From: Alicyclobacillus sp. SO9
GTDB lineage: Bacteria > Bacillota > Bacilli > Alicyclobacillales > Alicyclobacillaceae
Assembly: GCF_016406125.1 (NCBI RefSeq)
Contig: NZ_CP066339.1
Location: 992,001 to 1,056,000 of the forward strand
Direction: 5' to 3'
Length of the DNA: 64,000 bases
Position numbers and translations under genes: made by a program
Notes under the pieces: generated by a model
Told to the model about the DNA's origin: nothing
The model's database searches: none
What the model saw: only the letters and a program-made list of their open reading frames with translations
Shown here: piece by piece, positions 46,048-62,836 of the stretch
Position numbering within the stretch: position 1 is the stretch's first letter
How the letters are laid out: the number at the start of each line of letters is the position of its first letter

Positions 46048-46233
46048 TGTTGTTCATGTTGTTTTAAATAAATGGGCGTCAACCAGTTAAGGCACAGAGG
46101 CAGAGAAGAGTTTTCGCTGTTGTGCTTTAACACATACAAGCGTTTAAACTTTAAATCACATTCTTGTGAATTTTTGTTCAATTATATAGTTTACATATAA
46201 GGGGTGCCTACTTTTCGAAAGGAGGAATCAAGA

Positions 46234-47310
46234 GTGGACAACATTAAGCCGAGAGAGCAAATAGAGAAAATTGAAGCTTATTCACCTGGAACTCCCGTTG
46301 AGGAAGTCCAGAGACAGCTCGGATTAACCAAAGTTGTGAAACTGGCATCAAACGAGAATCCTTTCGGTTATTCACCATTGGCCGAACAAGCCATGATTGA
46401 AGAAGTACAAAAAATCAATATGTACCCAGAGGTAGCGCTGCCGCTGTTGGCCGGAAGCCTGGCAGAGAAACTGGGCGTTTCGCGGGAACAACTCTTCTTT
46501 GGAAACGGATCGGACGAAATCATCCGACTTTTAACAACAACCTATATCAACCAGAGCGACGAAGCCGTTATGGCGGATGTCACATTTCCTCGATACTACA
46601 CTGACGTGCTGATAGGAGGAGGCACGCCGATAACAGTGCCGCTGGTTGAAGGTGTGCATGACTTGGAGGGCATGCTTGCGGCTGTACGTGCAAAAACGAA
46701 AATGGTATTTGTATGTAATCCCAATAATCCGACCGGAACAGTGGTTGGGAAGGAGCAACTGCTGCATTTTATCGAACGGATTCCTTCCCATGTGCTCATT
46801 GTCATTGATGAGGCCTACTACGAGTACGTCCATTCAACTGACTATCTGGAGACGGTTCCGCTTCTCGATAAGTATCCCAATTTGATTGTGCTGAGAACAT
46901 TTTCAAAGATTTACGGACTGGCCGGATTGAGAGTTGGCTACGGTCTGATGAATCCAGAACTCGTTCAAAACCTCATGAGGGTCAAAGAGCCGTTTAATGT
47001 CAATAGAATGGCGCAAAGAGCGGCACTTGCATCTCTAAATGACGACAAATTTGTAGCGATGACAAGGGAAAGAAACGAGCAAGGGAAGCGCATCTACGAA
47101 AGAACATTTTCGGAACTAGGTCTGCCTTATTTCTCCTCCCAGGCTAACTTTGTGATGGTCGATGTAAAGCGGCCTGCAAAAATAGTTTACATGGACTTAT
47201 TAAAACGCGGTGTGATTGTTAGGCCGGTAGGTTATCCCACCACGATTCGCGTCACGATTGGTAATGAAGAAGAGGTCGAGACGTTTGTACAAGCTTTAAA
47301 AATGTTGTAA
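46234..47310 (+). CDS. HisC-like (aromatic amino acid) aminotransferase
   Basis: The start is GTG 46234, eight bases after AAAGGAGG. The 358-residue fold type I enzyme has KLASNENPFGYSPLA, FFGNGSDEIIRLL, FVCNPNNPTGT, VIDEAYYEYV and the PLP lysine in LRTFSKIYGLAGLRVGYG, all typical of histidinol-phosphate aminotransferases. HisC enzymes of Bacillus also use tyrosine and phenylalanine. No other histidine gene is near; the gene opens an operon with a thioesterase and 2-oxoacid dehydrogenase next to HPA catabolism. It therefore most likely converts tyrosine to 4-hydroxyphenylpyruvate (inference). Confidence 0.9.
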   Translation: MDNIKPREQIEKIEAYSPGTPVEEVQRQLGLTKVVKLASNENPFGYSPLAEQAMIEEVQKINMYPEVALPLLAGSLAEKLGVSREQLFFGNGSDEIIRLLTTTYINQSDEAVMADVTFPRYYTDVLIGGGTPITVPLVEGVHDLEGMLAAVRAKTKMVFVCNPNNPTGTVVGKEQLLHFIERIPSHVLIVIDEAYYEYVHSTDYLETVPLLDKYPNLIVLRTFSKIYGLAGLRVGYGLMNPELVQNLMRVKEPFNVNRMAQRAALASLNDDKFVAMTRERNEQGKRIYERTFSELGLPYFSSQANFVMVDVKRPAKIVYMDLLKRGVIVRPVGYPTTIRVTIGNEEEVETFVQALKML

Positions 47311-47322
47311 GAGGTGACAGCA

Positions 47323-47721
47323 ATGAAACCAGGCTTGGAACTAGGCAACACGGCTGCCATAACAGCAAAAGTTACGCCGGATATGTATGCGCAGTTTGAG
47401 GGGCAAATTGTCCATCGGGCCTATTCCACGGTTTCGATGGTTTACCACATGGAATGGGCAGCAAGACAGATTATACTGCCCTATCTGGAAGCAGACGAAG
47501 AGGGGATTGGCGGAGGCGTCACTGCCAAGCATGTGTCGCCCACTGCGGGCGGTGACACCATTACTGCGACAGCCACGGTGACAGGACTGAAGGGCCGTGC
47601 TGTCATTACAGCAGTGGAAGTGCATAACGGCAAGCAGTTGGTGGGAACAGGTGAAGTGACACAGTACGTTCTGCCCAGAAGTGAGATTGAAAAGAAACTA
47701 GCATCGGAGCAAGCAAAATGA
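47323..47721 (+). CDS. Hot-dog acyl-CoA thioesterase (FlK-like)
   Basis: The start is ATG 47323 behind AAGAGGTGA; the GTG at 47314 lies inside that site. The 132-residue hot-dog protein aligns with fluoroacetyl-CoA thioesterase FlK: YSTVSMVYHMEWAAR, then LPYLEADEEG and VTAKHVSPTAGGDTI. The catalytic triad of FlK (Thr42, Glu50, His76) is matched by Thr36, Glu44 and His70 with identical spacing (8 and 26). It hydrolyses a small or aryl acyl-CoA. Between an aromatic aminotransferase and a 2-oxoacid dehydrogenase, the likely substrate is 4-hydroxyphenylacetyl-CoA, giving free HPA for HpaB (inference). Confidence 0.88.
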   Translation: MKPGLELGNTAAITAKVTPDMYAQFEGQIVHRAYSTVSMVYHMEWAARQIILPYLEADEEGIGGGVTAKHVSPTAGGDTITATATVTGLKGRAVITAVEVHNGKQLVGTGEVTQYVLPRSEIEKKLASEQAK

Positions 47722-47754: not shown

Positions 47755-48822
47755 ATGGAAGACCAATTTCCAATCAGAGAGATTTTACATGGTGACGGAA
47801 AATTGGTGGATTCGGCTTACGAGTCAAAGATTACAGAAAAACTGGCGAAGTCGCTTTTCTATAAGATGCTGAGAGCACGAATGCTCGATCAAAAGTGTTT
47901 TAACCTGCAGCGTCAAGGCAGGATTGGCACGTATGTCCAATATGAAGGTCAGGAAGCTTCACAAATTGGCAGTTCGGCAGCGCTGGAAGAGGGGGATTGG
48001 CTCTTTCCGACTTATCGCGATCACGGAGCCATGCTCACATTTGGCTATCCCATGCAGACGTTGCTGTTACTTTGGAAGGGACGTTTCGCTGGGAACGTTG
48101 CACCGCAAGGAAAAAACATTGTACCTCCTTCCATCCCCATTGCATCGCAGTTGCCGCAAGCCGCAGGAGCTGCCATTGCGGAACGGAAAAAGGGAACAGA
48201 CCGGGTCTCCATCGTGTATTTCGGAGACGGAGCGACATCTGAAGGGGATTTTCATGAAGGTATCAATTTTGCAAGCGTTTTCAATGCTCCTACGATATTT
48301 TTCAATCAAAACAATGGGTTTGCCATCAGTGTTCCAATTGCCAAACAAATGAAGTCAAAGACAATAGCGCAAAAGTCACAGGCTTATGATATTGAAGGTG
48401 TGCGCATTGACGGGAATGATGTATTCGCGGTTTATTTCACCACCCTTGACGCGATTAAAAAAGCCCGAAGAGGAGACGGTCCAACGTTAATTGAGTCTGT
48501 GACCTGGCGTTACAATGCCCATACCACAACAGATGACGCTTCCAGATATCGCAATCAAGAAGAAAGCAAAAAGCGCCGGGAAACAACGGATCCGCTGTTG
48601 AGAGTGGAACGTTTCATGAAGGCCAAGGGCTGGATTGACGATAACTGGATTGAACAACAAAGACAAGGCATTACTACAGAAATTAATGACGCAATCGAGG
48701 CAGCTGAAAACTATCCCCAAGCTGGGGTTGATGAATTGTTTGATTACGTTTTCGAAAAGCCCACATGGAATCTGGAAGAACAAAAAAGAGCCTATCTGGA
48801 TATGAAAGCGGGTGTTCAATAA
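47755..48822 (+). CDS. 2-oxoacid dehydrogenase E1 component, alpha subunit
   Basis: The ATG at 47755 follows GGGGAGTG. The 355-residue subunit has the E1alpha thiamine diphosphate motif (GDGATSEGDFHEGINFASVF, then FFNQNNGFAIS), the GQEASQIGSSAAL segment, FPTYRDHGAML, and the phosphorylation-loop-like YNAHTTTDD. It decarboxylates a 2-oxoacid and passes the acyl group to the lipoyl domain of E2. Sequence alone does not separate pyruvate, branched-chain and arylpyruvate use; the operon partners suggest 4-hydroxyphenylpyruvate. Its stop overlaps the ATG of E1beta. Confidence 0.94.
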   Translation: MEDQFPIREILHGDGKLVDSAYESKITEKLAKSLFYKMLRARMLDQKCFNLQRQGRIGTYVQYEGQEASQIGSSAALEEGDWLFPTYRDHGAMLTFGYPMQTLLLLWKGRFAGNVAPQGKNIVPPSIPIASQLPQAAGAAIAERKKGTDRVSIVYFGDGATSEGDFHEGINFASVFNAPTIFFNQNNGFAISVPIAKQMKSKTIAQKSQAYDIEGVRIDGNDVFAVYFTTLDAIKKARRGDGPTLIESVTWRYNAHTTTDDASRYRNQEESKKRRETTDPLLRVERFMKAKGWIDDNWIEQQRQGITTEINDAIEAAENYPQAGVDELFDYVFEKPTWNLEEQKRAYLDMKAGVQ

Positions 48823-49826
48823 TGGCAATTTCTGCACGCGTTGAAACGAGACAGATGACCCTTGTTCAAGCCGTCACAGATGCGCTTCGAACCATGTTGC
48901 GTGAGCGAGACGACGTCTTGTTGCTTGGAGAGGACATCGGCAAAAACGGTGGTGTTTTTCGAGCCACAGACGGCTTGATGGACGAGTTTGGAGAAGAGCG
49001 GGTGATGGACACCCCCCTTGCTGAATCAGGTATTATCGGCTCTGCCATTGGCATGGCCATCAACGGATTCCGCCCGGTGGCTGAAATCCAGTTTCTTGGC
49101 TTCATTTACCCAGGGCTCAATCAGATTATGACGCATGCGACCAGAATGCGATCGCGATCGCTTGGGCGTTACAGTGTGCCCATGGTGATCCGTGCTCCGT
49201 ATGGCGGGGGAGTGCGGGCGCCGGAAATTCACTCTGACAGCATGGAAGCACTGTTCACACATATGCCGGGGATTAAAGTAGTGGTGCCTTCCACTCCCTA
49301 TGATGCCAAAGGACTGTTAATTTCTGCTATAGAAGACCCTGACCCCGTACTGTTTCTTGAACCATTAAGGAGTTACAGAGCCGGCAGAGGCGACGTGCCG
49401 GAAGGGAAATACTCCATTGAATTAGGTCAGGCTGCCACTTTGAAAGAGGGAAATGACGTCTCCATATTTGCATGGGGCGCTATGATTCCCAAAGCTCTAA
49501 AAGCTGCTGAGAAAATAGAACAGGAGCAAGGTATTACGTGTGACGTCATTGATTTACGCACGCTCTACCCGTTGGATAAGGACGCAATTTCTGCGTCGGT
49601 GCAGAAAACAGGACGTGCAGTCATTGTCCACGAAGCTCAATCCACAGGCGGTGTCAGCGGGGATATTATGTCTGTCATTAACGATACGTCGTTTTTGTAC
49701 TTGCGGTCCCCAATTGAAAGAGTCACAGGCTATGATATGCCTGTCCCAATGTTTTCCCTTGAAGACGAATACCTGCCGAACGAAGACAGGATACGGCATG
49801 CTATTAAGAAGTCCGTCAACTTTTAG
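48822..49826 (+). CDS. 2-oxoacid dehydrogenase E1 component, beta subunit
   Basis: The start is ATG 48822, which shares a base with the E1alpha TAA. The 334-residue subunit has the transketolase pyrimidine-binding fold: LLLGEDIGKNGGVFRATDGL, DTPLAESGIIGSAIGMAING, VAEIQFLGFIYPGLNQI and the C-terminal domain CDVIDLRTLYPLDKDA. It forms an alpha2beta2 E1 with the preceding gene product. The 18-base gap to E2 keeps the three genes in one transcript. Confidence 0.95.
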   Translation: MAISARVETRQMTLVQAVTDALRTMLRERDDVLLLGEDIGKNGGVFRATDGLMDEFGEERVMDTPLAESGIIGSAIGMAINGFRPVAEIQFLGFIYPGLNQIMTHATRMRSRSLGRYSVPMVIRAPYGGGVRAPEIHSDSMEALFTHMPGIKVVVPSTPYDAKGLLISAIEDPDPVLFLEPLRSYRAGRGDVPEGKYSIELGQAATLKEGNDVSIFAWGAMIPKALKAAEKIEQEQGITCDVIDLRTLYPLDKDAISASVQKTGRAVIVHEAQSTGGVSGDIMSVINDTSFLYLRSPIERVTGYDMPVPMFSLEDEYLPNEDRIRHAIKKSVNF

Positions 49827-49844: not shown

Positions 49845-51365
49845 ATGACTGAAGTGAAGCTAAACGATATCGGTGAAGGAATGACAGAAGCCGAAATCAT
49901 GCAGATCCTCGTTGAACCTGGAGCATCGGTTTCTGTTGATGAACCGCTTGTCGAAATACAGACGGATAAATTGACTGCAGAACTCCCTTCCCCCGTAGCC
50001 GGCGTTGTCGAGAAGATTCATGCAAAGGTCGGAGATATTGTTCAGGTTGGGAATGCAGTCGTTACAGTCTCCGCGGCTGGGGAAACCATATCCGAAGAGC
50101 ACAAGACAGCGCAACCGTCAGAAGGCAACAGTATGGGGTCTCGCACAAACGAGAGTGCTGAAAGCGGCGTAAACGATGAATTGATGCCGTTCAATTCAAA
50201 AACGGGACATGTCCTGGCAGTACCGCACACGCGCAAGATAGCCCGTGACCTTGGAGTGGATATTGAACACATTCAAGGAACTGGACCTTCGGGTCGTGTA
50301 ACGGAAGAGGACGTTTATGCGTTTTCTGCCCACCCAAAGTCAGGCGTGGATAACAAAACCTATGAATCGGTTCGAAGTGAAGCGGGTTCAGCCGAGCCTG
50401 GTTTAGCCGAATCTGGTCTGTCTCAAGCGAGTCAACCGGAATCTGGTGCTCTGGCGAGCAGTGTGCGCGGCATCGCAAGTGCATCACCTGCAGTCCGCAA
50501 GTTGGCCAGGGAATACGGCGTAGACTTGGCGGATATTAGGGGCAGCGACGGCTTGGGACGAATCCGCGCGGAGGACATAACTGCACACCAAGCAGGGCCG
50601 GCTGTGACACAAAGCATCGTGCAAACAATATCTGCCGAGGTCAAGTCCCAGGAAGCCAAGTCTTCCGACGCAAGAGAAATTCCATTTCGCGGACGCAGAC
50701 GAGCCATTGCAAAAAAGATGTCGCAATCCATGTTCACGATTCCCCACGTTACGCACTTCGACGAGGTCGACGTCACGGATATTTTTGCGGTTAAAGAGTC
50801 ATTGAAAAAGGTCGATCCAGAAAAGAATGTATCGGTTGCGGCGTTCTATATCAAAGCGTTGCAATTTGCTTTGCAAGAAGTACCGATTTTCAATGCCAAG
50901 CTTGATGAAGAAAATGAAGTCATTCGGCTGGAGCAAGAATACAACATCGGGATAGCGGCCGACACAGAGGATGGGCTGATAGTGCCTGTCATTAAGAATG
51001 TGGAGAAGTTGTCCGTATTTCAAATTCATACACAGATGAAGCAACTCATCAAAAAAGCAAAAGAAAATCGGTTGACGGCTGCAGATATTTCCGACGGTAC
51101 ATTTACGGTATCCAATGTCGGTCCGATGGGAAGTACCGGTGCGACACCGATTATTAACTACCCTGAGTGTGCTTTGATGGCTTTTCATAAGACAAAAAAG
51201 ACGCCGGTGGTCAGAGACAACGACGAGATTGTCATCCGCCAGGTGATGAACATTTCCATGACGTTTGACCACAGAGTCGCCGACGGTGCAAAGGCTGTAC
51301 AGTTCACGAATCATTTCATCAAGTATATTGAAAACCCCAACCTGCTACTTGTGGACTTGGGCTAA
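49845..51365 (+). CDS. 2-oxoacid dehydrogenase E2, with two subunit-binding domains
   Basis: The ATG at 49845 follows GGGAGGGG. The 506-residue acyltransferase has one lipoyl domain (1-78, lipoyl Lys42 in EIQTDKLTAE), then two peripheral subunit-binding domains in a row: about 124-160 (VPHTRKIARDLGVDIEHIQG) and about 212-248 (SPAVRKLAREYGVDLADIRG). Most E2 proteins have one. A catalytic domain (278-506) follows, with the active-site motif DHRVADG (His476). The two linkers are Ser/Ala/Pro/Glu-rich. It passes an acyl group from E1 to CoA. No E3 gene is in the window, so a housekeeping dihydrolipoamide dehydrogenase must serve it. Confidence 0.94.
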   Translation: MTEVKLNDIGEGMTEAEIMQILVEPGASVSVDEPLVEIQTDKLTAELPSPVAGVVEKIHAKVGDIVQVGNAVVTVSAAGETISEEHKTAQPSEGNSMGSRTNESAESGVNDELMPFNSKTGHVLAVPHTRKIARDLGVDIEHIQGTGPSGRVTEEDVYAFSAHPKSGVDNKTYESVRSEAGSAEPGLAESGLSQASQPESGALASSVRGIASASPAVRKLAREYGVDLADIRGSDGLGRIRAEDITAHQAGPAVTQSIVQTISAEVKSQEAKSSDAREIPFRGRRRAIAKKMSQSMFTIPHVTHFDEVDVTDIFAVKESLKKVDPEKNVSVAAFYIKALQFALQEVPIFNAKLDEENEVIRLEQEYNIGIAADTEDGLIVPVIKNVEKLSVFQIHTQMKQLIKKAKENRLTAADISDGTFTVSNVGPMGSTGATPIINYPECALMAFHKTKKTPVVRDNDEIVIRQVMNISMTFDHRVADGAKAVQFTNHFIKYIENPNLLLVDLG

Positions 51366-51500: not shown

Positions 51501-51884
51501 TTAGGACCGAAACCGTTGATGAATGTTGTTCTTTTTGTATGTCGGATGTGAAAACTCGTATAGTTCCAGTGAGACTGCAAGGTACCTTGTGTCAAAGAGA
51601 TTGGCCGTATGTGAAGTAATCACATCAAACAGTGCTTGGCAAATCGTATCCAGGGATTCCTTATCTCGTCCGCCGCCTAATTTTAGTGTGGCATGGATAA
51701 AAGCGTCGTCTTCTTTTCCGTCTGCAATTTCATAATCGTGAAGCTGAATCGCTCGCGAGCGGATGCCTCCTGTGGGCAATATAGGGTTGTATGAAATTAA
51801 GACCTCGTTTATTTTCTTTAACAGGCTTTTTATTTGAAGCGCGTCGGAGAGATTGTCTGTGTATTCAACGATGACGTGGGGCAT
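51501..51884 (-). CDS. hpaF: 5-carboxymethyl-2-hydroxymuconate delta-isomerase
   Basis: The ATG at 51884 (minus) lies behind GGGAGGAAA. The 127-residue product belongs to the tautomerase superfamily, with the catalytic proline right after the initiator Met (MPHVIVEYTDNL). It has GIRSRAIQLHDYEIADGKED and HATLKLGGGRDKES, typical of CHMI (HpaF). It isomerises 5-carboxymethyl-2-hydroxymuconate in HPA meta-cleavage. It is the last gene of a minus-strand operon with the two HpaG-like genes and ends convergent to the E2 gene. Confidence 0.92.
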   Translation of the reverse strand: MPHVIVEYTDNLSDALQIKSLLKKINEVLISYNPILPTGGIRSRAIQLHDYEIADGKEDDAFIHATLKLGGGRDKESLDTICQALFDVITSHTANLFDTRYLAVSLELYEFSHPTYKKNNIHQRFRS

Positions 51885-51976: not shown

Positions 51977-52729
51977 CTATGGAGCAGGCATAAGCCGCCC
52001 TATAGTGTTGTGGAGTTTTCCGATGCCTTCAATTTCTGTCACAACCTCATCGCCTTCATGTATGTTCACTGCACCTTTAGGGGTTCCGGTCAGAATGATA
52101 TCTCCAGGGCTCAGGGTCATGAAGCTGCTCAAGTATTCGATGAGGAAGGGAACACTGAAAATCATGTCTTTAGTTGTTCCTTCCTGGGTAACCTCACCAT
52201 TGACATAAGTCCGCAACTGGAGGTTCATGGGGTCTTCGATGTCCGGTGCATCTACAATCCACGGTCCAATGGGCGTACAGGCGTCACGGTTTTTGACCCG
52301 CAGATTTGGACGATAGTAGTTTTCGAGATAGTCTCTGATGGCGTAATCATTGGCCACGGTGTATCCAGATATGTATTCATAGGCGTGTTGCTGTTTGACA
52401 TGCTTCGCCTCTCTCCCGATAACAGCTACCAGTTCGCATTCATAATGCATATTCGCTGCGTCTGCGGGACGAGGTGTGATGCCTCTGTGGCCAACAAAAG
52501 TGTTTGGCCCTTTTAGAAAGACCAGGGGTTCTGTGGGGGCTTTAAACTCCAGTTCAGAAGCGTGATCGGCGTAGTTTAAACCCAGTGCAAATGAGGTCTT
52601 TGGGTCCAGAGGAGGCAGCCACGTTACCTCATGTTCGTTCACAAACGTTCCGTCGGGAAGTTGTATGCCCTCTGCAGTATTAATCACTGACCGTATTTGT
52701 CCTTGATATCCGATGCGCCCTCGTTTCAC
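51977..52729 (-). CDS. hpaG: HpaG C-terminal-half homologue (FAH-family decarboxylase/isomerase)
   Basis: The start is GTG 52729 (minus) behind GGAGGGAG, overlapping the previous stop as GTGA; a longer in-frame ATG at 52783 lies inside the upstream gene. The 250-residue FAH-fold protein has FALGLNYADHASELEFKAP, the metal-ligand pair in MHYECELVAVIG and ANDYAIRDYLENYYRPNLRV. These match the C-terminal half of E. coli HpaG, which as one fused protein does the decarboxylation and isomerisation of 5-oxopent-3-ene-1,2,5-tricarboxylate. Here the halves are separate genes. Confidence 0.9.
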   Translation of the reverse strand: MKRGRIGYQGQIRSVINTAEGIQLPDGTFVNEHEVTWLPPLDPKTSFALGLNYADHASELEFKAPTEPLVFLKGPNTFVGHRGITPRPADAANMHYECELVAVIGREAKHVKQQHAYEYISGYTVANDYAIRDYLENYYRPNLRVKNRDACTPIGPWIVDAPDIEDPMNLQLRTYVNGEVTQEGTTKDMIFSVPFLIEYLSSFMTLSPGDIILTGTPKGAVNIHEGDEVVTEIEGIGKLHNTIGRLMPAP

Positions 52730-53517
52730 TGTGCTCCCTCCAGTACTTGCTTGTGTTCTGGCTGAACTTTGTTTTGAAGCCATCCGATGCCTTCGATTTC
52801 GATTCGCACTTCGTCGTTTGCGGATACAAGAGGAGCCTGCTCCGGAGTGCCGACTAAAAGCGTATCACCGCGATAGAGAGTCATAAACTCAGTTACGTCA
52901 GCCAAAAGCCGTGCAATGGATCGGACTAGATTTCGGGTATTGTTGGCCTGCCTTAAAGTTCTGTTTACAAATACGCGAATATCGAGGTTATCCGGGTTCG
53001 GGATGTCGTTCTGTGAAACAATCCAAGGGCCAATGGGACAAAAACCGTCGCGGCTTCTATGCTTAACGCCAGGACGGAAGACACTGTCGTACGGAACACT
53101 GATATCGTTGGCAATGGTATATCCGGCAATGTAAGCAAAGGCTTCTTCCTTTTTCACGCGAGTTGCGGTTTCGCCGATGACAATCCCTAGAGCAGCCCCT
53201 ACCTGAATTTTGTCCACAGCTTGTGGAAGAGGGACAGGTATATTGGTTGCAATAAGCGTATTTTGCGGCTTGATATACAGAATGGGGGCTTGCGGCGGCT
53301 GGTTGTAGGGGGGCTTGGTGAAAACCTCTCCGAACGCTTCTAGTTCTCCCTTGTAGTTAAGCAGTGTGCCGTAGACGGTTCCAGTTGCAGGAATGTCAAA
53401 GCCTCCATTGGGCAGTGAGACAGTGCCGCTGTCTGCCGTAATCGTCCGATTTGATAAATCCACATTTCCTTCGAGGAATTTCTGTTCGCCTAACGGTTTG
53501 TACCTTATACGTGCCAT
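52726..53517 (-). CDS. HpaG N-terminal-half homologue (FAH family)
   Basis: The start is ATG 53517 (minus), nine bases after GAGGAG; a longer in-frame ATG at 53550 has no site. The 263-residue protein matches the N-terminal half of E. coli HpaG: LYIKPQNTLIATNIPVPLPQ, VGAALGIVIGETATRVKKEE, YIAGYTIANDISVPYDSVFR and RDGFCPIGPWIV. The Glu-x-Glu metal pair of FAH enzymes is replaced by GAALG, as in E. coli, so this half may need the partner protein for catalysis. It is the first gene of the minus-strand hpaG-hpaF operon. Confidence 0.9.
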   Translation of the reverse strand: MARIRYKPLGEQKFLEGNVDLSNRTITADSGTVSLPNGGFDIPATGTVYGTLLNYKGELEAFGEVFTKPPYNQPPQAPILYIKPQNTLIATNIPVPLPQAVDKIQVGAALGIVIGETATRVKKEEAFAYIAGYTIANDISVPYDSVFRPGVKHRSRDGFCPIGPWIVSQNDIPNPDNLDIRVFVNRTLRQANNTRNLVRSIARLLADVTEFMTLYRGDTLLVGTPEQAPLVSANDEVRIEIEGIGWLQNKVQPEHKQVLEGAQ

Positions 53518-53564
53518 TTGACAGCACTCCTCAGCATAGGTATCTGACATCTCGATGCGAATAT

Positions 53565-55493: not shown

Positions 55494-55988
55494 ATGACTA
55501 CTGTACTGGATACAAAGACGTTTCGTCAGGCAATGGGGATGTTTGCCACAGGGGTTACGGTGATGGCAACAGAAGCGGATGGAGAACTGCACGCCATGAC
55601 TGCAAACGCTTTCTCGTCGTTGTCACTGGATCCGCCACTTATCTTAATCTGTCTCAAGCGCGGTGCAAAAATGGAGCATCTGATTAATCAAGGCAGCTAT
55701 TTCTCAGTCAGTTTTCTGTCAGAGCAGCAGGAACTGCTGTCTACCTATTTTGCGGGCGGCAGCAAGGACGGTACGGTTCCGGATTTTCAGTTTCAACCGT
55801 GGTCGAATACTGTGCGCTTGCAAGGGAGTATCTGTTCTGTGGCCTGTCAGGTCCATGAAATTGTTGAAGGCGGCGATCACGTTGTGGTCTTTGGCCGAGT
55901 CATGGACATCGACATGGATTCACAAGGGACTCCGCTGCTGTTCTACAAAGGGAAGTATCAAACCTTAGCGCGGGCTGAACAAGTTTAG
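55494..55988 (+). CDS. hpaC: 4-hydroxyphenylacetate 3-monooxygenase, flavin reductase component
   Basis: The ATG at 55494 follows AAGGAGGGG. The 164-residue protein is a short-chain flavin reductase of the HpaC type: FRQAMGMFATGVTVMATEAD, MTANAFSSLSLDPPLILICL, GSYFSVSFLSEQQELLSTYF and GDHVVVFGRVMDID. It reduces FMN or FAD with NAD(P)H and delivers it to HpaB, encoded two genes downstream. The context with hpaB, hpaD and hpaE makes the assignment firm. Confidence 0.92.
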   Translation: MTTVLDTKTFRQAMGMFATGVTVMATEADGELHAMTANAFSSLSLDPPLILICLKRGAKMEHLINQGSYFSVSFLSEQQELLSTYFAGGSKDGTVPDFQFQPWSNTVRLQGSICSVACQVHEIVEGGDHVVVFGRVMDIDMDSQGTPLLFYKGKYQTLARAEQV

Positions 55989-56086: not shown

Positions 56087-57577
56087 GTGGGAACAGAACT
56101 GAGGTATGAAGTAAAACCAGTACAGCACTATATCGACGGAGAATTTTGTGACAGCATCTCGGGAAAAACCTTCAAAACGGTGAATCCAACGACAAACGAA
56201 GTGATTACAACAGCGGCTGAAGGCTTCAGTGAAGATATCGATAAGGCTGTGCGAGCGGCAAACAGAGCGTTTCGTGAAGGTCCTTGGGCAGAAATGAAGA
56301 CAAAAGACCGAGCGGAATTAATGAGAACGATTGCTGCAGGAATTGAGAGCAACAGTGAAGAGTTGTCCTATTTGGAAACCTTGGATACGGGACTCCCAAT
56401 TTCTCAGACCAAAGGTCAAGCAGCCAGAGCGGCGGCAAATTTTCGCTTCTTTGCGGAAATGATTAGCCGCATGACAGGTGAGTCCTTTCCCGTAGATGAT
56501 ACTTTCCTCAACTACACAACGATGAAGCCTGTAGGAGTTGCCGGGCTGATTACACCCTGGAATACGCCACTGATGTTGGCTTCCTGGAAGATTGCTCCAT
56601 GCTTGGCCACTGGCAACACTGCTGTTCTGAAGCCTGCAGAATGGTCGCCTCTGACGGCCGCAAAACTTGCCAGTATCCTTGACGCCGCGGGGGTTCCTAA
56701 AGGCGTGTTCAATGTTGTTCAAGGTTACGGAGAAACTGCGGGAGCGGCATTAGTAGCCCATGAAGATGTCAAGCTGATTTCGTTTACCGGAGAGACGACC
56801 ACAGGAAAGGAGATTATGCGAAACGGCGCTGACACACTGAAGCGCTTCTCCATGGAACTTGGCGGCAAGTCACCTGTTGTCGTATTCGCGGATGCTGACT
56901 TGGACAGAGCGGTGGACGCTGTCGTATTCGGTATCTATTCGCTGAATGGTGAACGCTGTACAGCGGGATCGCGGTTACTTGTGGAACGCTCCATCAAAGA
57001 TGAATTTGAGCGCCGGTTACAGGAGCGCGTGGAAAAAATCAAAATCGGCGATCCCTTTCATCCCGACACAGAGGTGGGTGCACTCATCCATAAGGATCAC
57101 TACGACCGAGTCACAAACTACATCCAAATTGGACAAAAAGAAGGAGCCCGGGTGTTGGCGGGCGGCAGCAGGCCAAGGGACATGAGTCAAGGGAACTTCC
57201 TGTCACCGACCTTGTTTGTGGACGTGACAAACGATATGCGGATTGCACAGGAGGAAATCTTTGGACCGGTGCTCGTCTCCATTCCATTCGATTCCGAGGA
57301 AGAAGCCGTCAAACTGGCCAACGATGTAAACTACGGCCTTGCGTCCTATGTTTGGACAACCGATTTAACACGTGCTCATCGGGTGTCTCAGCAGATTGAA
57401 GCCGGGATGGTATGGATCAATTCACAGAATGTCAGAGACCTGCGAACACCGTTCGGAGGAGCGAAGATGAGCGGAATTGGACGTGAAGGCGGGCACTACA
57501 GCTTCGAATTCTATACAGAACAGAAAACAATCCATTTAGCGATGGGAGAACACCACATTCCGCAATTCGGAAAGTAA
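56087..57577 (+). CDS. hpaE: 5-carboxymethyl-2-hydroxymuconate semialdehyde dehydrogenase
   Basis: The start is GTG 56087 behind TGGAGGTTG. The 496-residue NAD-dependent aldehyde dehydrogenase has LITPWNTPLMLASWKIAPCL, FTGETTTGKEIM, the catalytic Glu in MELGGKSPVVV and the catalytic Cys in SLNGERCTAGSR. General ALDH motifs do not fix the substrate. The position between hpaC and hpaB/hpaD, and HpaE-like segments (GGAKMSGIGREGGHYSFEFY), point to oxidation of the ring-cleavage product CHMS. A GntR-type operator precedes it. Confidence 0.92.
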   Translation: MGTELRYEVKPVQHYIDGEFCDSISGKTFKTVNPTTNEVITTAAEGFSEDIDKAVRAANRAFREGPWAEMKTKDRAELMRTIAAGIESNSEELSYLETLDTGLPISQTKGQAARAAANFRFFAEMISRMTGESFPVDDTFLNYTTMKPVGVAGLITPWNTPLMLASWKIAPCLATGNTAVLKPAEWSPLTAAKLASILDAAGVPKGVFNVVQGYGETAGAALVAHEDVKLISFTGETTTGKEIMRNGADTLKRFSMELGGKSPVVVFADADLDRAVDAVVFGIYSLNGERCTAGSRLLVERSIKDEFERRLQERVEKIKIGDPFHPDTEVGALIHKDHYDRVTNYIQIGQKEGARVLAGGSRPRDMSQGNFLSPTLFVDVTNDMRIAQEEIFGPVLVSIPFDSEEEAVKLANDVNYGLASYVWTTDLTRAHRVSQQIEAGMVWINSQNVRDLRTPFGGAKMSGIGREGGHYSFEFYTEQKTIHLAMGEHHIPQFGK

Positions 57578-57667: not shown

Positions 57668-59146
57668 TTGGGTATTCGAACCGGTGCTGACTACATGAAG
57701 AGACTGGACGAGACAAAACTTGATGTATGGATTGACGGAAAGAAAGTAGAGGGTCCCATTTCTGAACACCCGGCGTTTAAAAATGTGATTCAGAGCATGG
57801 CTGGATTGTATGATTTGCAGAATGACCCAGACTATCAGGACGAAATGACGTATGTAGAGAACGGAGTTCGGTACGGCGCATCGTTTCTTGTCCCAAAAAC
57901 CACAGAAGACTTGGTGAAAAGACGCAAGATGATGAAGCGGTGGGCCGATTATGCCGGGGGCATGATGGGGAGATCGCCGGATTATCTGAACAGTGCCCTG
58001 ATGGCGATGAGTCAGGCCGGAGGATACTTTGAGCAAAATGACCCTCGCTTTGGAGAAAATATTCAGGCTTATTATGAATACATGCGCGAGAATGACTTGA
58101 GCATGACGCACACGCTCATTAATCCGCAAGTCAATCGGGGCGTGAGCAACAGCCAACAAAAAGACCCGTACGTGGCTGCACACGTAGTGGAGAAAAACGA
58201 GCAAGGGGTCGTTATTCGGGGCGCCAGGCTGTTGGCCACACAAGGACCGATTACCGATGAAATCATGGTGTTTCCCTCTACCCTTTTGAAAGGCACAGAA
58301 GAGGACAATCCCTATTCTTTTGCTTTTGCCATTCCCAATTCAACCCCTGGTCTTCGTTATATCTGCAGAGAAACCTTTGACTACGGAAAATCCCATTACG
58401 ACCATCCGCTGGCCTCACGGTTTGAGGAAATGGATGCCATCGTCATCTTCGACGATGTGCTGGTTCCATGGAATCGCGTGTTTCTGCTTGAAGACGCCAA
58501 ACTGTGCAACGGCCTGCATATGACGACTGGGGCCACGGCGCAGATGACCTATCAAGTATTGCAGAAAAACATTGCGAAAGCCGAGTTTGTCTTAGGTATT
58601 ACTGAGAGTATTGTAGACGCCATCGGGATTGGCCAATTCCAGCACGTCCAGGAAAAAGTCTCGGAAATCATTTTAGCTGCCGAGACAATGAAAGCGTTTG
58701 TAAGAGCGTCTGAAGCCGATGCCGAACCCAATCAATGGGGTGTGATGACTCCGGCGTGGGCACCTCTGAATGCAGCAAGAAACATTTTCCCCAAAACCTA
58801 TCCGCGCTTGGTCGAAATTATCCAACTGCTTGGTGCAAGCGGACTGATGGCCATTCCGGGTGAGAACGATTTGAACAGTCCTATTCAACCCGACATTGAA
58901 AAGTACCTGGTTGCCCGCAATGCGCCGGCAGAAGCGAGATTGAAGCTGTTCAGGCTGGCTTGGGACGCATCGCTCAGTGCATTCGGATCGCGGCAAGTGC
59001 TCTACGAACGCTATTTCTTCGGCGACCCAATCCGCATGGCCAGCGCTTATTACAACTCCTACGACAAATCAGAAGCTGTGAACCGTGTGCAGGAATTTTT
59101 GAATCGGCCGGAACAGTCAACCGCAAAGGAACTGCTTTCTAAATAG
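57668..59146 (+). CDS. hpaB: 4-hydroxyphenylacetate 3-monooxygenase, oxygenase component
   Basis: The start is TTG 57668 behind AAAAGGAGGA. The 492-residue protein has the acyl-CoA-dehydrogenase-like fold of HpaB: RTGADYMKRLDETKLDVWID, ENDLSMTHTLINPQVNRG, FDDVLVPWNRVFLLEDA, and the C-terminal LASRFEEMDA and YERYFFGDPIRMASAY segments. With reduced flavin from HpaC and oxygen it hydroxylates HPA to 3,4-dihydroxyphenylacetate. It is 11 bases before hpaD. Confidence 0.95.
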   Translation: MGIRTGADYMKRLDETKLDVWIDGKKVEGPISEHPAFKNVIQSMAGLYDLQNDPDYQDEMTYVENGVRYGASFLVPKTTEDLVKRRKMMKRWADYAGGMMGRSPDYLNSALMAMSQAGGYFEQNDPRFGENIQAYYEYMRENDLSMTHTLINPQVNRGVSNSQQKDPYVAAHVVEKNEQGVVIRGARLLATQGPITDEIMVFPSTLLKGTEEDNPYSFAFAIPNSTPGLRYICRETFDYGKSHYDHPLASRFEEMDAIVIFDDVLVPWNRVFLLEDAKLCNGLHMTTGATAQMTYQVLQKNIAKAEFVLGITESIVDAIGIGQFQHVQEKVSEIILAAETMKAFVRASEADAEPNQWGVMTPAWAPLNAARNIFPKTYPRLVEIIQLLGASGLMAIPGENDLNSPIQPDIEKYLVARNAPAEARLKLFRLAWDASLSAFGSRQVLYERYFFGDPIRMASAYYNSYDKSEAVNRVQEFLNRPEQSTAKELLSK

Positions 59147-59157
59147 GGGGGACAAAA

Positions 59158-60156
59158 ATGGGATACGAAGCGTTCAACATTATACGTGCGGCCCATGCTG
59201 AACTGCTGGTACGGGACTTGGAGAAATCACGTTATTTCTACGTAGATATCCTAGGTTTTCTGGTAACTGAGGAAACATCCAAACAACTGTATTTGCGAGG
59301 TGTGGAAGAACGGGTTCACCACAGTCTGGTGTTGACGCAGGCAGACGAACCCAGCGTAGGGCACCTGAGTTTTCGGGTTGAAAGCAATCGGGACGTGGAG
59401 AATCTCTATCAATTCTATCAAGAAGCAGGCTGTCAGCCGAGAATGCGTGAAGCCGGAGAGGAAATCGGCCAGGGGAGTGCAGTGATTGTACAAGATCCTT
59501 TTGGATTTCCTGTGGAATTCTTTGCCGATATGGAGATTGAGGCACCATTTCACCAAATGTACCACTTGCACCGGGGTGCACAAGTGCGGAGAATGGACCA
59601 CTTTAATGTCTTTAATCCGGACTTTGATAAGGCCTGCGATTTTTGGATGAACCAACTCGGATTTCGCTTGTCAGAGTATGTTGAAACGGATGAAGAACCG
59701 CGGAAAAAGACAGCGGTCTGGACACATCGCAAGCCCAATGTGCACGATTTGGCAATGATGCGGGGGGATGGTCCCCGCGTGCATCATATCGGTTTTTGGA
59801 TGGAGGACATGAACAGTATCATTCGGGCCTGCGACATTCTCGGCGGCGCAGAGTTGCATGAGCACATCGAACGGGGCCCAGGGCGCCACGGCATTTCCAA
59901 TGCGTTCTTTCTGTATTTACGCGATCCCGATGGTCACAGAATCGAACTCTATACAAGCGACTATCTGACTTCCGATCCCGATTTGCCGCCAATCCGCTGG
60001 AGCGCAAACGATCCCAGGCGGCAAACACTGTGGGGGCATAAAACACCTGAAAGCTGGTGGAAAGAGGCCTCTGCGGTGGCAGATTTGAGCTCTGGCGGTA
60101 CAATTCCCGTTGTTTCGGGAGATGCGGTGGCTGGTTCAGAGAAGTTTATTCGCTAA
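59158..60156 (+). CDS. hpaD: 3,4-dihydroxyphenylacetate 2,3-dioxygenase (type I extradiol)
   Basis: The ATG at 59158 follows TAGGGGGGA. The 332-residue protein has two vicinal-oxygen-chelate domains (about 10-130 and 143-270). The metal ligands of the HPCD/MndD enzymes are visible: His148 in RMDHFNV, His210 in RVHHIGFW and Glu263 in HRIELYTSDY. Thus it is the Gram-positive glyoxalase-fold type (Mn or Fe), not the type III LigB-fold HpaD of E. coli. It cleaves homoprotocatechuate to CHMS. Confidence 0.94.
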   Translation: MGYEAFNIIRAAHAELLVRDLEKSRYFYVDILGFLVTEETSKQLYLRGVEERVHHSLVLTQADEPSVGHLSFRVESNRDVENLYQFYQEAGCQPRMREAGEEIGQGSAVIVQDPFGFPVEFFADMEIEAPFHQMYHLHRGAQVRRMDHFNVFNPDFDKACDFWMNQLGFRLSEYVETDEEPRKKTAVWTHRKPNVHDLAMMRGDGPRVHHIGFWMEDMNSIIRACDILGGAELHEHIERGPGRHGISNAFFLYLRDPDGHRIELYTSDYLTSDPDLPPIRWSANDPRRQTLWGHKTPESWWKEASAVADLSSGGTIPVVSGDAVAGSEKFIR

Positions 60157-60231
60157 CAAGAAATGCGACAGAGAATATGATGCGATTTTCGGGGGATTAG
60201 AGACCAGAAATCACAATTTAGGAGGCACAAC

Positions 60232-61116
60232 ATGGATAAGTTTCGCGGTTCAATTGTCCCATTGGTGACACCCTTTCAGGAAAATGGCGAGATTGACGAG
60301 GCAGCCTATAAAGACTTGATTGAGTGGCAAATTGAAAGTGGCAGCCATGGGATTTCCTGCTGCGGCACCACAGGCGAACCCAGTTCTCTCAGCTTTGATG
60401 AACGCAAATACATGCTCGAACTGACAGTGAGTCAAGTAGGTGGCAGGGTGCCGACTGTGCTGGGGACTGGAAGTACAAACCACGATGAGACCATGGCATT
60501 GACGAAGCATGCGGAGAAAGTCGGTGTGGACGCAGCGCTGGTTATTGTTCCGTATTACAACAAGCCGTCTCAAGAGGGACTGTACCAGCATTTTCGGGAA
60601 GTAGCCGATTCAGTAGAGATTCCTGTTATTATCTACAACATTCCAGGCAGAACAGGCGTAAATATGGAGCCCTCTACAATGGCTCGACTGCGCAAATCCT
60701 GTTCCAATATTATTGGTGTAAAGGAATCCAACAAGAACTTCGAACAAGTCAGTAAGGTGCTGCATGAGTGCGGCAGAGATTTTAACGTATACAGCGGCAT
60801 TGAACTTCTCTGCTATCCGATGCTTGCGCTTGGCGGCGCCGGGCATGTCAGTGCGACTGCCAATCTCCTGCCACGAGAAGTTGCGGACATCTATAACTTT
60901 GTAGAGCAGGGAAAGTGGAAGGAAGCCATCGACCTTCATTATTATTTGCTGGAGCTGAACGAAGCGCTATTCTGGGAAACGAATCCAGGACCGCTGAAAG
61001 CTTCGATGGGGATGACTGGGAAGATTAAACCGGTGATTCGGAGCCCCTTAGCCCTTCCTTCTGAAGACATGCAGGGCAAATTGCGTGACGTTCTGACGAA
61101 GTATCAACTTGTTTGA
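60232..61116 (+). CDS. DapA/NAL-family aldolase, probable HpaI replacement
   Basis: The ATG at 60232 follows TTAGGAGG. The 294-residue product is a class I (Schiff-base) lyase of the dihydrodipicolinate synthase family: GISCCGTTGEPSSLSFDERK, VPYYNKPSQEGLYQHF, IIYNIPGRTGVNM (Tyr135, Arg140) and the Schiff-base Lys164 in IIGVKESNKNF. Lysine synthesis is unlikely here because all neighbours are hpa genes. No class II HpaI aldolase is in the window, so this enzyme may cleave 4-hydroxy-2-oxoheptanedioate to pyruvate and succinate semialdehyde (inference). A true DapA cannot be ruled out. Confidence 0.88.
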   Translation: MDKFRGSIVPLVTPFQENGEIDEAAYKDLIEWQIESGSHGISCCGTTGEPSSLSFDERKYMLELTVSQVGGRVPTVLGTGSTNHDETMALTKHAEKVGVDAALVIVPYYNKPSQEGLYQHFREVADSVEIPVIIYNIPGRTGVNMEPSTMARLRKSCSNIIGVKESNKNFEQVSKVLHECGRDFNVYSGIELLCYPMLALGGAGHVSATANLLPREVADIYNFVEQGKWKEAIDLHYYLLELNEALFWETNPGPLKASMGMTGKIKPVIRSPLALPSEDMQGKLRDVLTKYQLV

Positions 61117-61231
61117 GCTTTGTTTGCGATTTTGAGTATGATTCGAGTGCGATTTGTGTGAAATGGAGATTAGACAGTCTGACGTGCAGGCGTAATTTGC
61201 CAAGACCTGTGCAGAACGCAGTTTACAATCG

Positions 61232-61267
61232 GGGCTTTTGAGGGTGTCCATTCCGGACACCAAGCCC
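61232..61267 (+). other. Hairpin after the aldolase gene
   Basis: GGTGTCC/GGACACC (loop ATTCC) is extended by the outer pairs GGGCTT/AAGCCC with a bulge. There is no T-run directly after. It separates the aldolase from the MFS gene promoter. Confidence 0.5.
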
Positions 61268-61303
61268 TGATTGGCTGATACCTCAATATAAAAAATCTGA
61301 ATA

Positions 61304-61340
61304 TTGACTTTTATATAAAATCATATACGATTTTATATAA
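61304..61340 (+). promoter_or_regulatory. MFS-gene promoter with 30-bp palindromic operator (site 3)
   Basis: The arms TTATATAAAATC (61311-61322) and GATTTTATATAA (61329-61340) are perfectly complementary around ATATAC. The core ATCATATACGAT differs by one base from the sites at 53577 and 56008. A -35-like TTGACT at 61304-61309 precedes it and a -10-like TACGAT falls inside it, so binding would block transcription of the transporter gene. Confidence 0.8.
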
Positions 61341-61399
61341 ATTAAAAGGGTGTAAGCAGCCTAAAACGGAGTACATTCTAAGCAAGGGGAGGTAAAATT

Positions 61400-62836
61400 G
61401 TGGCAGAGAAGTTGCAGGGCGATTCACAGACTCCATCTGGCATCTTAGCAAGGCTGGACCGACTGTCCGTATGGAGTCTTCCATGGTTGTTTGTCGGAAT
61501 CATAGGTGTCGGATTTCTTTTTACGTTCTTTGACATCTTTGACATTAACGTATCTTTTATTCAAACGTGTACTTCCATAGTGCCTGGATGTAAGCCGGAA
61601 AATGCAAATAACTATCTCGGTATGCCGGTGGTCATGAACTTGGTGGGATACGTGCTGGGAACCTTGATTTTGAGTCCGCTGTCAGACCGAATTGGTCGCA
61701 GGCATATGTTGTTGATTACTCTGCTCGTTACTGGGTTGGGCTCACTTGTAACAGGCTTTGTCAGTTCATACGGTTGGTTTGTCTTTGCAAGGTTTGTGAC
61801 AGGCCTCGGTATTGGTGCCGATCTCGCTATTGTCAACACGTACATTAATGAAGTTGCACCCAGAGAGCACAGGGCTCGCTATACCTCTCTCATTTTTGTC
61901 ATGTCGGCTCTCGGCGCCCTGGCGGGGATTTGGCTGGGATTGCTTTTGACAACACCAAAGACGCCGTTTCCAATGGGCCTCCCATTCGCATTGGCTTCGG
62001 TCCACTTCGCCAATGGTTGGAGAATCATGTACTACATTGGCGGTGCCTTGGCATTGGTTGGGTTACTGATGCGCGCGCAGTTGCCGGAGTCACCGCGGTG
62101 GCTCATTTCGCGCAATCGTCTTGCTGATGCACATCGAGTCGTATCAGACATGGAAGCGATTGCATCGAGACACGGAGAACTGCCGCCAGTTACTCATGGA
62201 AGAGCCGAAGCGGAAGCAGAGACTACCATGCCATACGCTGAGATTTTCAAAAACAAAGTCTATGTAAAAAGAACCGTTATGCTGGTGCTTATGTGGCTGT
62301 TCAGTTATATCACCGTGTACTCGTTTGCGTCAGGTTTCACGACTATCTTGTCTTCGCTGAAGTATGCCCCGCCTGAAGCGGGCCTCATTGCAGCTGTTGG
62401 TACCATTGGATTCGTACTGTGTGCTTTGGCGGCTACTGTTTTTGGTGAGAAACTGGAACGAAAGACTTGGTTACCCATTTCCGCTGTCCTCACGATTATC
62501 GGTACTTTAATTGTTGCATTGGCTAAGACGGACCTATCCGTTGCGATGGTTGGTGCGGTTGTCATCTTCTTCGGATTCAACTTATGGGTCCCTATTGCCT
62601 ACACTTGGTCTACAGAGCATTATCCAACGCGAGCAAGGAGCACGGGTTTTGCATTGGCGGACGGTCTCGGTCATGTTGGCGGAGGCATTGGTGTACTCGT
62701 GATTGCCCCGCTCATCCCAGCCTTGGGCGTTATGTCAGCCTTTTTATTAATCGATGCATTTCTCGTAATCGGAGCGATGATTGCCATGTTCGGTCTAAGA
62801 ACAAAGGGCAAGAAACTGGAGGAACTTTCCCCCTGA
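61400..62836 (+). CDS. MFS transporter, likely aromatic acid/HPA uptake
   Basis: The start is GTG 61400 behind GGGGAGG. The 478-residue protein has about 12 membrane helices and the sugar/aromatic-acid porter motifs SPLSDRIGRRHMLLITLLVT (motif A) and GLGIGADLAIVNTYINEVAP followed by HRARYTS, with PESPRWLISRNR after helix 6. A cytoplasmic loop of about 50 residues follows. The hpa context and the palindromic operator suggest HPA or a related aromatic acid as substrate (inference). A terminator follows. Confidence 0.9.
   Translation: MAEKLQGDSQTPSGILARLDRLSVWSLPWLFVGIIGVGFLFTFFDIFDINVSFIQTCTSIVPGCKPENANNYLGMPVVMNLVGYVLGTLILSPLSDRIGRRHMLLITLLVTGLGSLVTGFVSSYGWFVFARFVTGLGIGADLAIVNTYINEVAPREHRARYTSLIFVMSALGALAGIWLGLLLTTPKTPFPMGLPFALASVHFANGWRIMYYIGGALALVGLLMRAQLPESPRWLISRNRLADAHRVVSDMEAIASRHGELPPVTHGRAEAEAETTMPYAEIFKNKVYVKRTVMLVLMWLFSYITVYSFASGFTTILSSLKYAPPEAGLIAAVGTIGFVLCALAATVFGEKLERKTWLPISAVLTIIGTLIVALAKTDLSVAMVGAVVIFFGFNLWVPIAYTWSTEHYPTRARSTGFALADGLGHVGGGIGVLVIAPLIPALGVMSAFLLIDAFLVIGAMIAMFGLRTKGKKLEELSP

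Follow-up and report, generated by a model that had tools for sequence, protein, structure and literature searches.

The window, by which we mean the whole 64,000-nucleotide stretch of Alicyclobacillus sp. SO9 that was analysed, contains an operon in which a gene for a thioesterase of the FlK family stands second (Table 1). The gene order is aminotransferase, thioesterase, E1 alpha, E1 beta and E2, with short gaps throughout. The thioesterase frame encodes 132 residues, with the stop codon inside the coordinates given, and its ATG lies 12 bases past the aminotransferase stop, behind the sequence agaggtg. The true start of the aminotransferase is probably the GTG at 46234, read by eye behind aaaggagg, and the ATG of E1 beta overlaps the E1 alpha stop (taATG). 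Pfam domains for E1 alpha, E1 beta and E2 are all present in the neighbouring genes. No E3 gene follows E2 in this operon, and no dehydrogenase of the leucine/phenylalanine type lies between the thioesterase and E1 in the window. A promoter and terminator scan was no richer than shuffled sequences (8 against a mean of 8.8, and 7 against 8.0). Upstream of the aminotransferase, the genes between 37737 and 45980, read by eye as an oligopeptide-type ABC transporter followed by an 809-residue beta-galactosidase-like protein, are apparently unrelated to the operon. On the other side lies a separate operon, the hpa cluster, which is convergent with that of the thioesterase (the two ends facing each other at 51365 and 51501). 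The region after hpaB (59158-62836, also by eye) holds genes for a dioxygenase-like protein (59158-60156), an aldolase resembling DapA (60232-61116) and an MFS transporter; the DapA-like product may serve in place of the hpa aldolase.

Table 1. Features of the thioesterase operon and of the convergent hpa cluster in the window.
Feature	Coordinates	Strand	Remarks
HisC-family (class I/II) aminotransferase, probable aromatic aminotransferase (inferred)	46204..47310	+	HisC equivalog by score
Thioesterase ribosome-binding site agaggtg	47310..47316	+	Read by eye
paa-type FlK-family hotdog thioesterase	47323..47721	+	T36, E44, H70; clade markers H31, R48, Q114
2-oxoacid dehydrogenase E1 alpha	47755..48822	+	TIGR03181, 444.2 bits, cut-off 411.35
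2-oxoacid dehydrogenase E1 beta	48822..49826	+	Listed ORF begins earlier, at 48765
E2 acyltransferase	49845..51365	+	Lipoyl, E3-binding and catalytic domains
hpaF-like 5-carboxymethyl-2-hydroxymuconate isomerase	51501..51884	-	Pfam CHMI, 160 bits
HpaG C-terminal-type isomerase/decarboxylase	51977..52783	-	TIGR02303, 399.8 bits, cut-off 276.4
HpaG N-terminal-type isomerase/decarboxylase	52726..53550	-	TIGR02305, 264 bits, cut-off 228.65
HpaC-like flavin reductase	55494..55988	+	Below curated cut-offs of all listed families
Aldehyde dehydrogenase, HpaE-like	56087..57577	+	Named by eye
HpaB 4-hydroxyphenylacetate 3-monooxygenase, oxygenase component	57668..59146	+	TIGR02309, 706.1 bits, cut-off 480.2

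At the level of sequence, the resemblance of the thioesterase to FlK is far beyond chance. Its match to Pfam PF22636 (FlK) has an E-value of 8.5e-32 and 109.8 bits against a cut-off of 27, it is the only product of its genome to match this family, and residues 32-121 align with residues 38-127 of FlK (PDB: 3kv7; 2.1e-10) with no gap. Because the alignment is ungapped, T36, E44 and H70 fall on T42, E50 and H76 of FlK. This bears out the initial annotation, which had matched the Thr-Glu-His triad to that of FlK in identity and in spacing (+8 and +26), and the MEWA and PYLE segments named there also agree with FlK. A search of NCBIfam, the PaaI model included, found no family at E 0.001. Among solved structures the closest match is the Thermus protein TTHA0967, which is nearer in sequence (5.5e-19) than FlK and is also the top structural match (PDB: 2cwz; Z 21.1, rmsd 1.1, 37% identity) of the AlphaFold model (mean pLDDT 96.2). 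FlK structures come second (Z 18.0-19.0, 24-27% identity), a ranking that Foldseek also gave, and Thermus PaaI (PDB: 1j1y) superposes at Z 14.0 with 18% identity.

We aligned 130 sequences, namely the window protein, TTHA0967, FlK, 108 further members of the clade described here and 19 more distant members of the family. The maximum-likelihood tree divides them into 110 that group with TTHA0967 and 20 that group with FlK, with support of 100/99 for the split; since the alignment has few columns and several branches are long, those of FlK and TTHA0967 among them, the inner forks of this midpoint-rooted tree are unsure. The side containing TTHA0967, which we call the paa-type clade, is marked by H31, R48 and Q114, each present in 108 of the 108 further members as well as in the window protein and TTHA0967. 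The position of Q114 is arginine in FlK (R120) and in all 19 of the non-clade members. At the position of Phe36 of FlK, a numbering fixed by F36A mutant entries among the PDB matches, the window protein has V30 (the 108 clade members have valine in 88 cases and isoleucine in 20), and V30 is preceded by a six-residue gap, the six FlK residues before Phe36 having no counterpart. This comparison with the Phe gate of FlK, proposed in the initial annotation and made here by alignment, finds the lid Phe missing. We take the gating Phe36 lid and R120 of FlK to be important in its recognition of fluorine. The Pfam match and the triad would suit a fluoroacetyl-CoA thioesterase that confers fluoroacetate resistance as FlK does, but Phe36 and the residues before it are without counterpart, all 108 clade members have Q in place of R120, the clade stands apart from FlK in the tree and most of the neighbourhoods that we read are those of aromatic catabolism. 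We regard this function as very improbable, and fluoroacetate resistance was rejected on the missing lid Phe and R120; arylacetyl-CoA is the likelier substrate of the two. Descent of FlK from the paa-type clade was likewise rejected, an origin there being unsupported since FlK, on its long branch, lies outside the clade and groups with other family members.

The triad itself is present in the window protein, TTHA0967 and FlK, and in every one of the 108 further clade sequences and 19 more distant relatives. It is not diagnostic of function, because every aligned relative has it, and we dropped the suggestion that an intact triad points to a special role (127 of 127 aligned relatives).

Membership of the clade follows the capacity for phenylacetyl-CoA catabolism. 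The thioesterase alignment finds a match of some kind in 126 of 398 genomes of the phylum and one of at least 101 bits in 11; this line for the clade was chosen once the scores were seen to leave a gap from 101.2 to 74.7 bits. Strong matches to PaaA/PaaC occur in 13 of the 398 genomes, and all 11 clade genomes are among these 13, the two others being G375 (63 bits) and G432 (no match). Fisher's test gives p = 9e-20 over the 398 genomes with kinship ignored, and such values overstate independence because the genomes are related, the 11 positives coming from 6 families. Below 101 bits, as a control, there is no link with PaaA (1 of 115 against 1 of 272, p = 0.51). PaaA was matched at E 0.001 in 15 genomes, in 14 of them over the cut-off, and 13 were counted as strong; the two dropped were G298 (19 bits, or 33.3 with in-frame neighbours) and G320 (22.1 bits), and counting both in keeps all 11 clade genomes inside. 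Among 61 relatives, HpaB over cut-off is found in 15 genomes, 13 of which have the thioesterase gene, against 8 of the 46 others, an association (p = 2e-6, with the weak matches G058 and G060 dropped from 23 genomes) that is confounded by kinship.

A scan of genome contigs yielded 136 relatives of the thioesterase, of which the best 80, all Bacillales loci with thioesterases 52-71% identical to the window protein, were kept and searched for neighbour genes by tblastn (E 1e-8). Alignment A1, which drew on 40 of these 80 loci, matched PF22636 in 41 of its 41 rows. Among the best 80 of 136, E1 alpha, E1 beta and E2 occur together in the same 77 loci, a Glu/Leu/Phe/Val dehydrogenase in 78 (at most 200 bp from the thioesterase in 75), PaaX in 68, E3 and a PaaY-like gene in 63 each, a thiolase in 59, PaaH in 53, an ABC permease in 48 and its substrate protein in 46. 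The PaaX and E3 queries, from L045, exceed their NCBIfam cut-offs; the 'PaaY' query from the same locus is under its own (131.6 against 319.6), its best score, also below cut-off, being to gamma carbonic anhydrase. The substrate proteins are kin of 6hni, 3lkv and 3lft, some of which bind aromatic amino acids. PaaX or one of PaaA, C, D and K is present in 70 of the 80 stretches fetched for the best 80 of 136, and some of the 10 without lie on short contigs. The sequence of L092 ends just past the dehydrogenase. In L060 and L075 the thioesterase and dehydrogenase are found with E1-E2 missing from the fetched stretch; the complex can thus be parted from the thioesterase-dehydrogenase pair. The window aminotransferase has relatives in 13 of the best 80 of 136 loci, and HppD is present in all 13.

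The dehydrogenase of this Bacillales module carries the motif TGTDMGT in 77 of the best 80 of 136 loci (it was not found in 3), at a position where TAEDVGT or TAEDVNT stands in leucine dehydrogenases. We take this Gly/Ala exchange to be the switch between phenylalanine and leucine dehydrogenases. The closest PDB entries by score are leucine dehydrogenases and no NCBIfam family is matched over its cut-off, which counts against a phenylalanine role.

Wide stretches were also fetched for 20 of 22 other genomes with a match, G019 and G030 being left out. By tblastn, 18 of these 20 family-relative stretches hold the thioesterase gene (the two without are the weak matches G058 and G060), and PaaA, C, D, K or R accompanies it in 16 of the 18, the exceptions being L032 and L034. 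Aminotransferase relatives are found in 3 of the 20, one of which (L025) adjoins E1-E2. Six further stretches came from the phylum sample: L177, L178 and L179, from two other families, have a PaaA-PaaC-PaaD-thioesterase row; in L181 E1-E2 adjoins the thioesterase with no other queried genes; and no queried gene, whether for paa, the dehydrogenase or E1-E2, was seen in L180 or L182. Adjacency to paa is therefore common, not universal. The three paa rows stand without an E1 complex alongside, as would suit a safety valve of the paa pathway, in which the thioesterase would hydrolyse surplus phenylacetyl-CoA or dead-end ring-CoA intermediates and return CoA, like PaaI/PaaY, with the hpa neighbours of the window incidental. 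A PaaI-like gene, sought with a single query, was found in just 2 of the best 80 of 136 Bacillales loci, which also favours such a function, as do the Thermus PaaR operon with its PaaK (PMC6651687) and the description of PaaI as a phenylacetyl-CoA thioesterase that clears excess (PMC4498308). The tie to E1-E2 in 77 of the best 80 of 136 loci tells against it, as do the presence of PaaI alongside in Thermus, in the relative stretch L036 and in the genome studied here, and the distance in this genome between the thioesterase and paa. We hold the safety valve to be rather unlikely, and the narrower idea of a plain stand-in for PaaI is weakened by the PaaI genes of this genome and of Thermus.

In the thioesterase tree the window protein nests among Bacillales (82 rows, 99/95; 34 rows, 99/96), apart from the groups formed by its own family, whose members are 39-50% identical to it. 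The E1 proteins likewise cluster with Bacillales, E1 alpha in a group of 8 rows (96/91) and E1 beta in one of 26 (100/99); their trees were built from hand-chosen loci (34 of 86 and 36 of 88 with a match, respectively). The simplest reading of these trees would be that the thioesterase and E1 genes were acquired together by transfer. One tree row (L146) is identical to another (L117). The thioesterase of L096, on a contig labelled Chryseobacterium sp. ISL-80, pairs with that of Cytobacillus (L100; 100/97), and this assembly is probably mislabelled or contaminated.

The paa genes of the present genome lie elsewhere, with two PaaA/PaaC matches (267.7 and 220.4 bits; C1:2731275-2733537) at a distance of 1.69 Mb from the thioesterase. 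They belong to a cluster (L131, C1:2719000-2738900) in which PaaR-, PaaA-, PaaC-, PaaD- and PaaK-like genes were recognised by eye; it has a TGTDVGT dehydrogenase but, unlike most of the relatives' paa clusters examined, no FlK-family thioesterase. By the Gly/Ala rule we take this dehydrogenase to be of the phenylalanine type. Other E1 genes are found in a 970-residue frame, in a four-gene operon (L132) and in an operon that includes a leucine dehydrogenase-type TAEDVGT enzyme (L133). From their gene order the two operons look like pdh and bkd, and the E1-E2 genes of the window are therefore the genome's third such system. These separate operons bear on a third function for the thioesterase, the hydrolysis of acyl-CoAs, short branched ones or others, that the neighbouring 2-oxoacid dehydrogenase would make from branched-chain 2-oxoacids or pyruvate. 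TIGR03181 does name the window E1 alpha a pyruvate dehydrogenase over its cut-off, and the module dehydrogenase is nearest leucine dehydrogenases; with pdh-like and bkd-like operons present separately, a TGTDMGT motif in the module enzyme and paa markers in 70 of the best 80 of 136 loci, we consider this function improbable. The genome further contains one other HisC over cut-off, a PaaI over cut-off and 32 Pyr_redox_2 matches, which offer many candidates for E3. HPPD was not found over cut-off in this genome (best 34.7 bits against 277), so a route for tyrosine through homogentisate is unlikely.

Since the catalytic residues are kept, those specific to fluorine are lost and the neighbours belong to aromatic breakdown, the substrate is probably an arylacetyl-CoA rather than fluoroacetyl-CoA; judged by comparison, hydrolysis of arylacetyl-CoA by the paa-type clade is on balance likely. 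We infer the substrate, the direction of flux and the catalytic steps as follows. The aminotransferase would yield phenylpyruvate or 4-hydroxyphenylpyruvate, which E1-E2, with an E3 from elsewhere, would convert to phenylacetyl-CoA or 4-hydroxyphenylacetyl-CoA, and the thioesterase would release the free arylacetic acid. Free 4-hydroxyphenylacetate could then feed the convergent hpa cluster, and phenylacetyl-CoA could enter the distant paa cluster. The reported chemistry of FlK is an alpha-deprotonation (ketene-like). By analogy, catalysis here may proceed in the same manner, aided by the acidic benzylic position: such an alpha-CH2 suits deprotonation, so that arylacetyl- and fluoroacetyl-CoA would share a mechanism. 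HpaB acts on free 4-hydroxyphenylacetate, and a CoA ester derived from tyrosine must therefore be hydrolysed before it, as phenylacetyl-CoA need not be. That requirement would give the thioesterase a role within the pathway here, with the safety valve as main rival.

Several observations count against this reading. The hpa cluster is separate, convergent and seen at no other examined locus, HpaB, HpaC and HpaD being present in 0 of 100 comparison stretches, 98 of which hold the thioesterase gene. The genome's own paa cluster is remote, adjacency to paa is not universal and paa rows occur without E1; a thioesterase in the paa route would undo useful work; the E1 alpha score and the likeness of the module dehydrogenase to leucine dehydrogenases point elsewhere; the module's dehydrogenase is missing between thioesterase and E1 here; and the genome also has a PaaI. 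The initial proposal that the neighbours indicate an arylacetyl-CoA gains from comparison (98 neighbourhoods, co-occurrence and the Thermus regulon), whereas its tie to 4-hydroxyphenylacetate is an adjacency in one genome. Use of the enzyme in this genome to turn tyrosine into 4-hydroxyphenylacetate is a tentative suggestion, short of an even chance. More doubtful is the general scheme, a tyrosine route via a CoA ester in which a dedicated 2-oxoacid dehydrogenase would make 4-hydroxyphenylacetyl-CoA and a paa-type thioesterase would free 4-hydroxyphenylacetate for ring cleavage.

The published record on this clade centres on TTHA0967, whose structure, with the protein named in its title, was released in 2005 (PDB: 2cwz). 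Table 5 of a later paper lists it as a 'hypothetical protein' in the operon TTHA0963-67, which includes PaaI (TTHA0965) and phenylacetyl-CoA ligase (TTHA0966) and is raised without PaaR (TTHA0973) (PMC6651687). Within the accessible parts of three other papers, 2CWZ is called unassignable to any hotdog subfamily (PMC2698920), TTHA0967 is listed with a binding site and nothing more (PMC4948773), and a 2026 survey of the pathway names neither FlK nor hotdog in its main text (PMC13186573). Our literature search, a weak one in that subscription journals are thinly covered, returned no paper assigning arylacetyl-CoA activity to the clade, and 4-hydroxyphenylacetyl-CoA, thioesterase and tyrosine were nowhere found together. 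The single paper retrieved for 4-hydroxyphenylacetyl-CoA concerns methionine in Salmonella, and most components of the module came up jointly in just one publication, on a Pseudomonas genome. Both family and pathway are on record, but the literature searched contains no account of the clade, of its markers or of its use. The idea of a new natural role was partly prefigured by the 2005 structure and by the listing of TTHA0967 in the PaaR operon. The Pfam label 'fluoroacetyl-CoA-specific thioesterase', given to the whole family, is probably wrong for the paa-type clade, which many phenylacetate-degrading Bacillota share with Thermus; H31, R48, Q114 and the missing lid set the groups apart. If correct, our reading would supply a candidate substrate for TTHA0967, still hypothetical in 2019 according to the same table (PMC6651687), and would point to a path from tyrosine to 4-hydroxyphenylacetate that is oxidative and depends on CoA.

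Four known systems can be set beside the window. FlK of Streptomyces cattleya (PDB: 3kv7 and others) shares the Pfam family, fold, triad and triad spacing, but carries Phe36, preceded by six additional residues, along with R120 and H118 where the window protein has V30, Q114 and V112, and the window protein is set apart further by H31 and R48. PaaI (PDB: 1psu, 1j1y) has in common the hotdog fold, the pathway and the proposed reaction; it belongs to another hotdog family, as the weaker structural match and the missing NCBIfam match indicate. The Bacillales module (thioesterase, dehydrogenase, E1 alpha, E1 beta, E2, E3; L045-L124) has the same gene order apart from the dehydrogenase, and its E1 proteins are kin to those of the window, which differs in having an aminotransferase in front, no dehydrogenase separating thioesterase and E1 and no E3 in the operon, and in adjoining hpa instead of paa. 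TTHA0967 shares with the window protein its side of the tree, the triad, H31, R48 and Q114, the fold and a place in the paa regulon; in the operon listing it stands with PaaI and PaaK, whereas the window protein stands with an aminotransferase and E1-E2.
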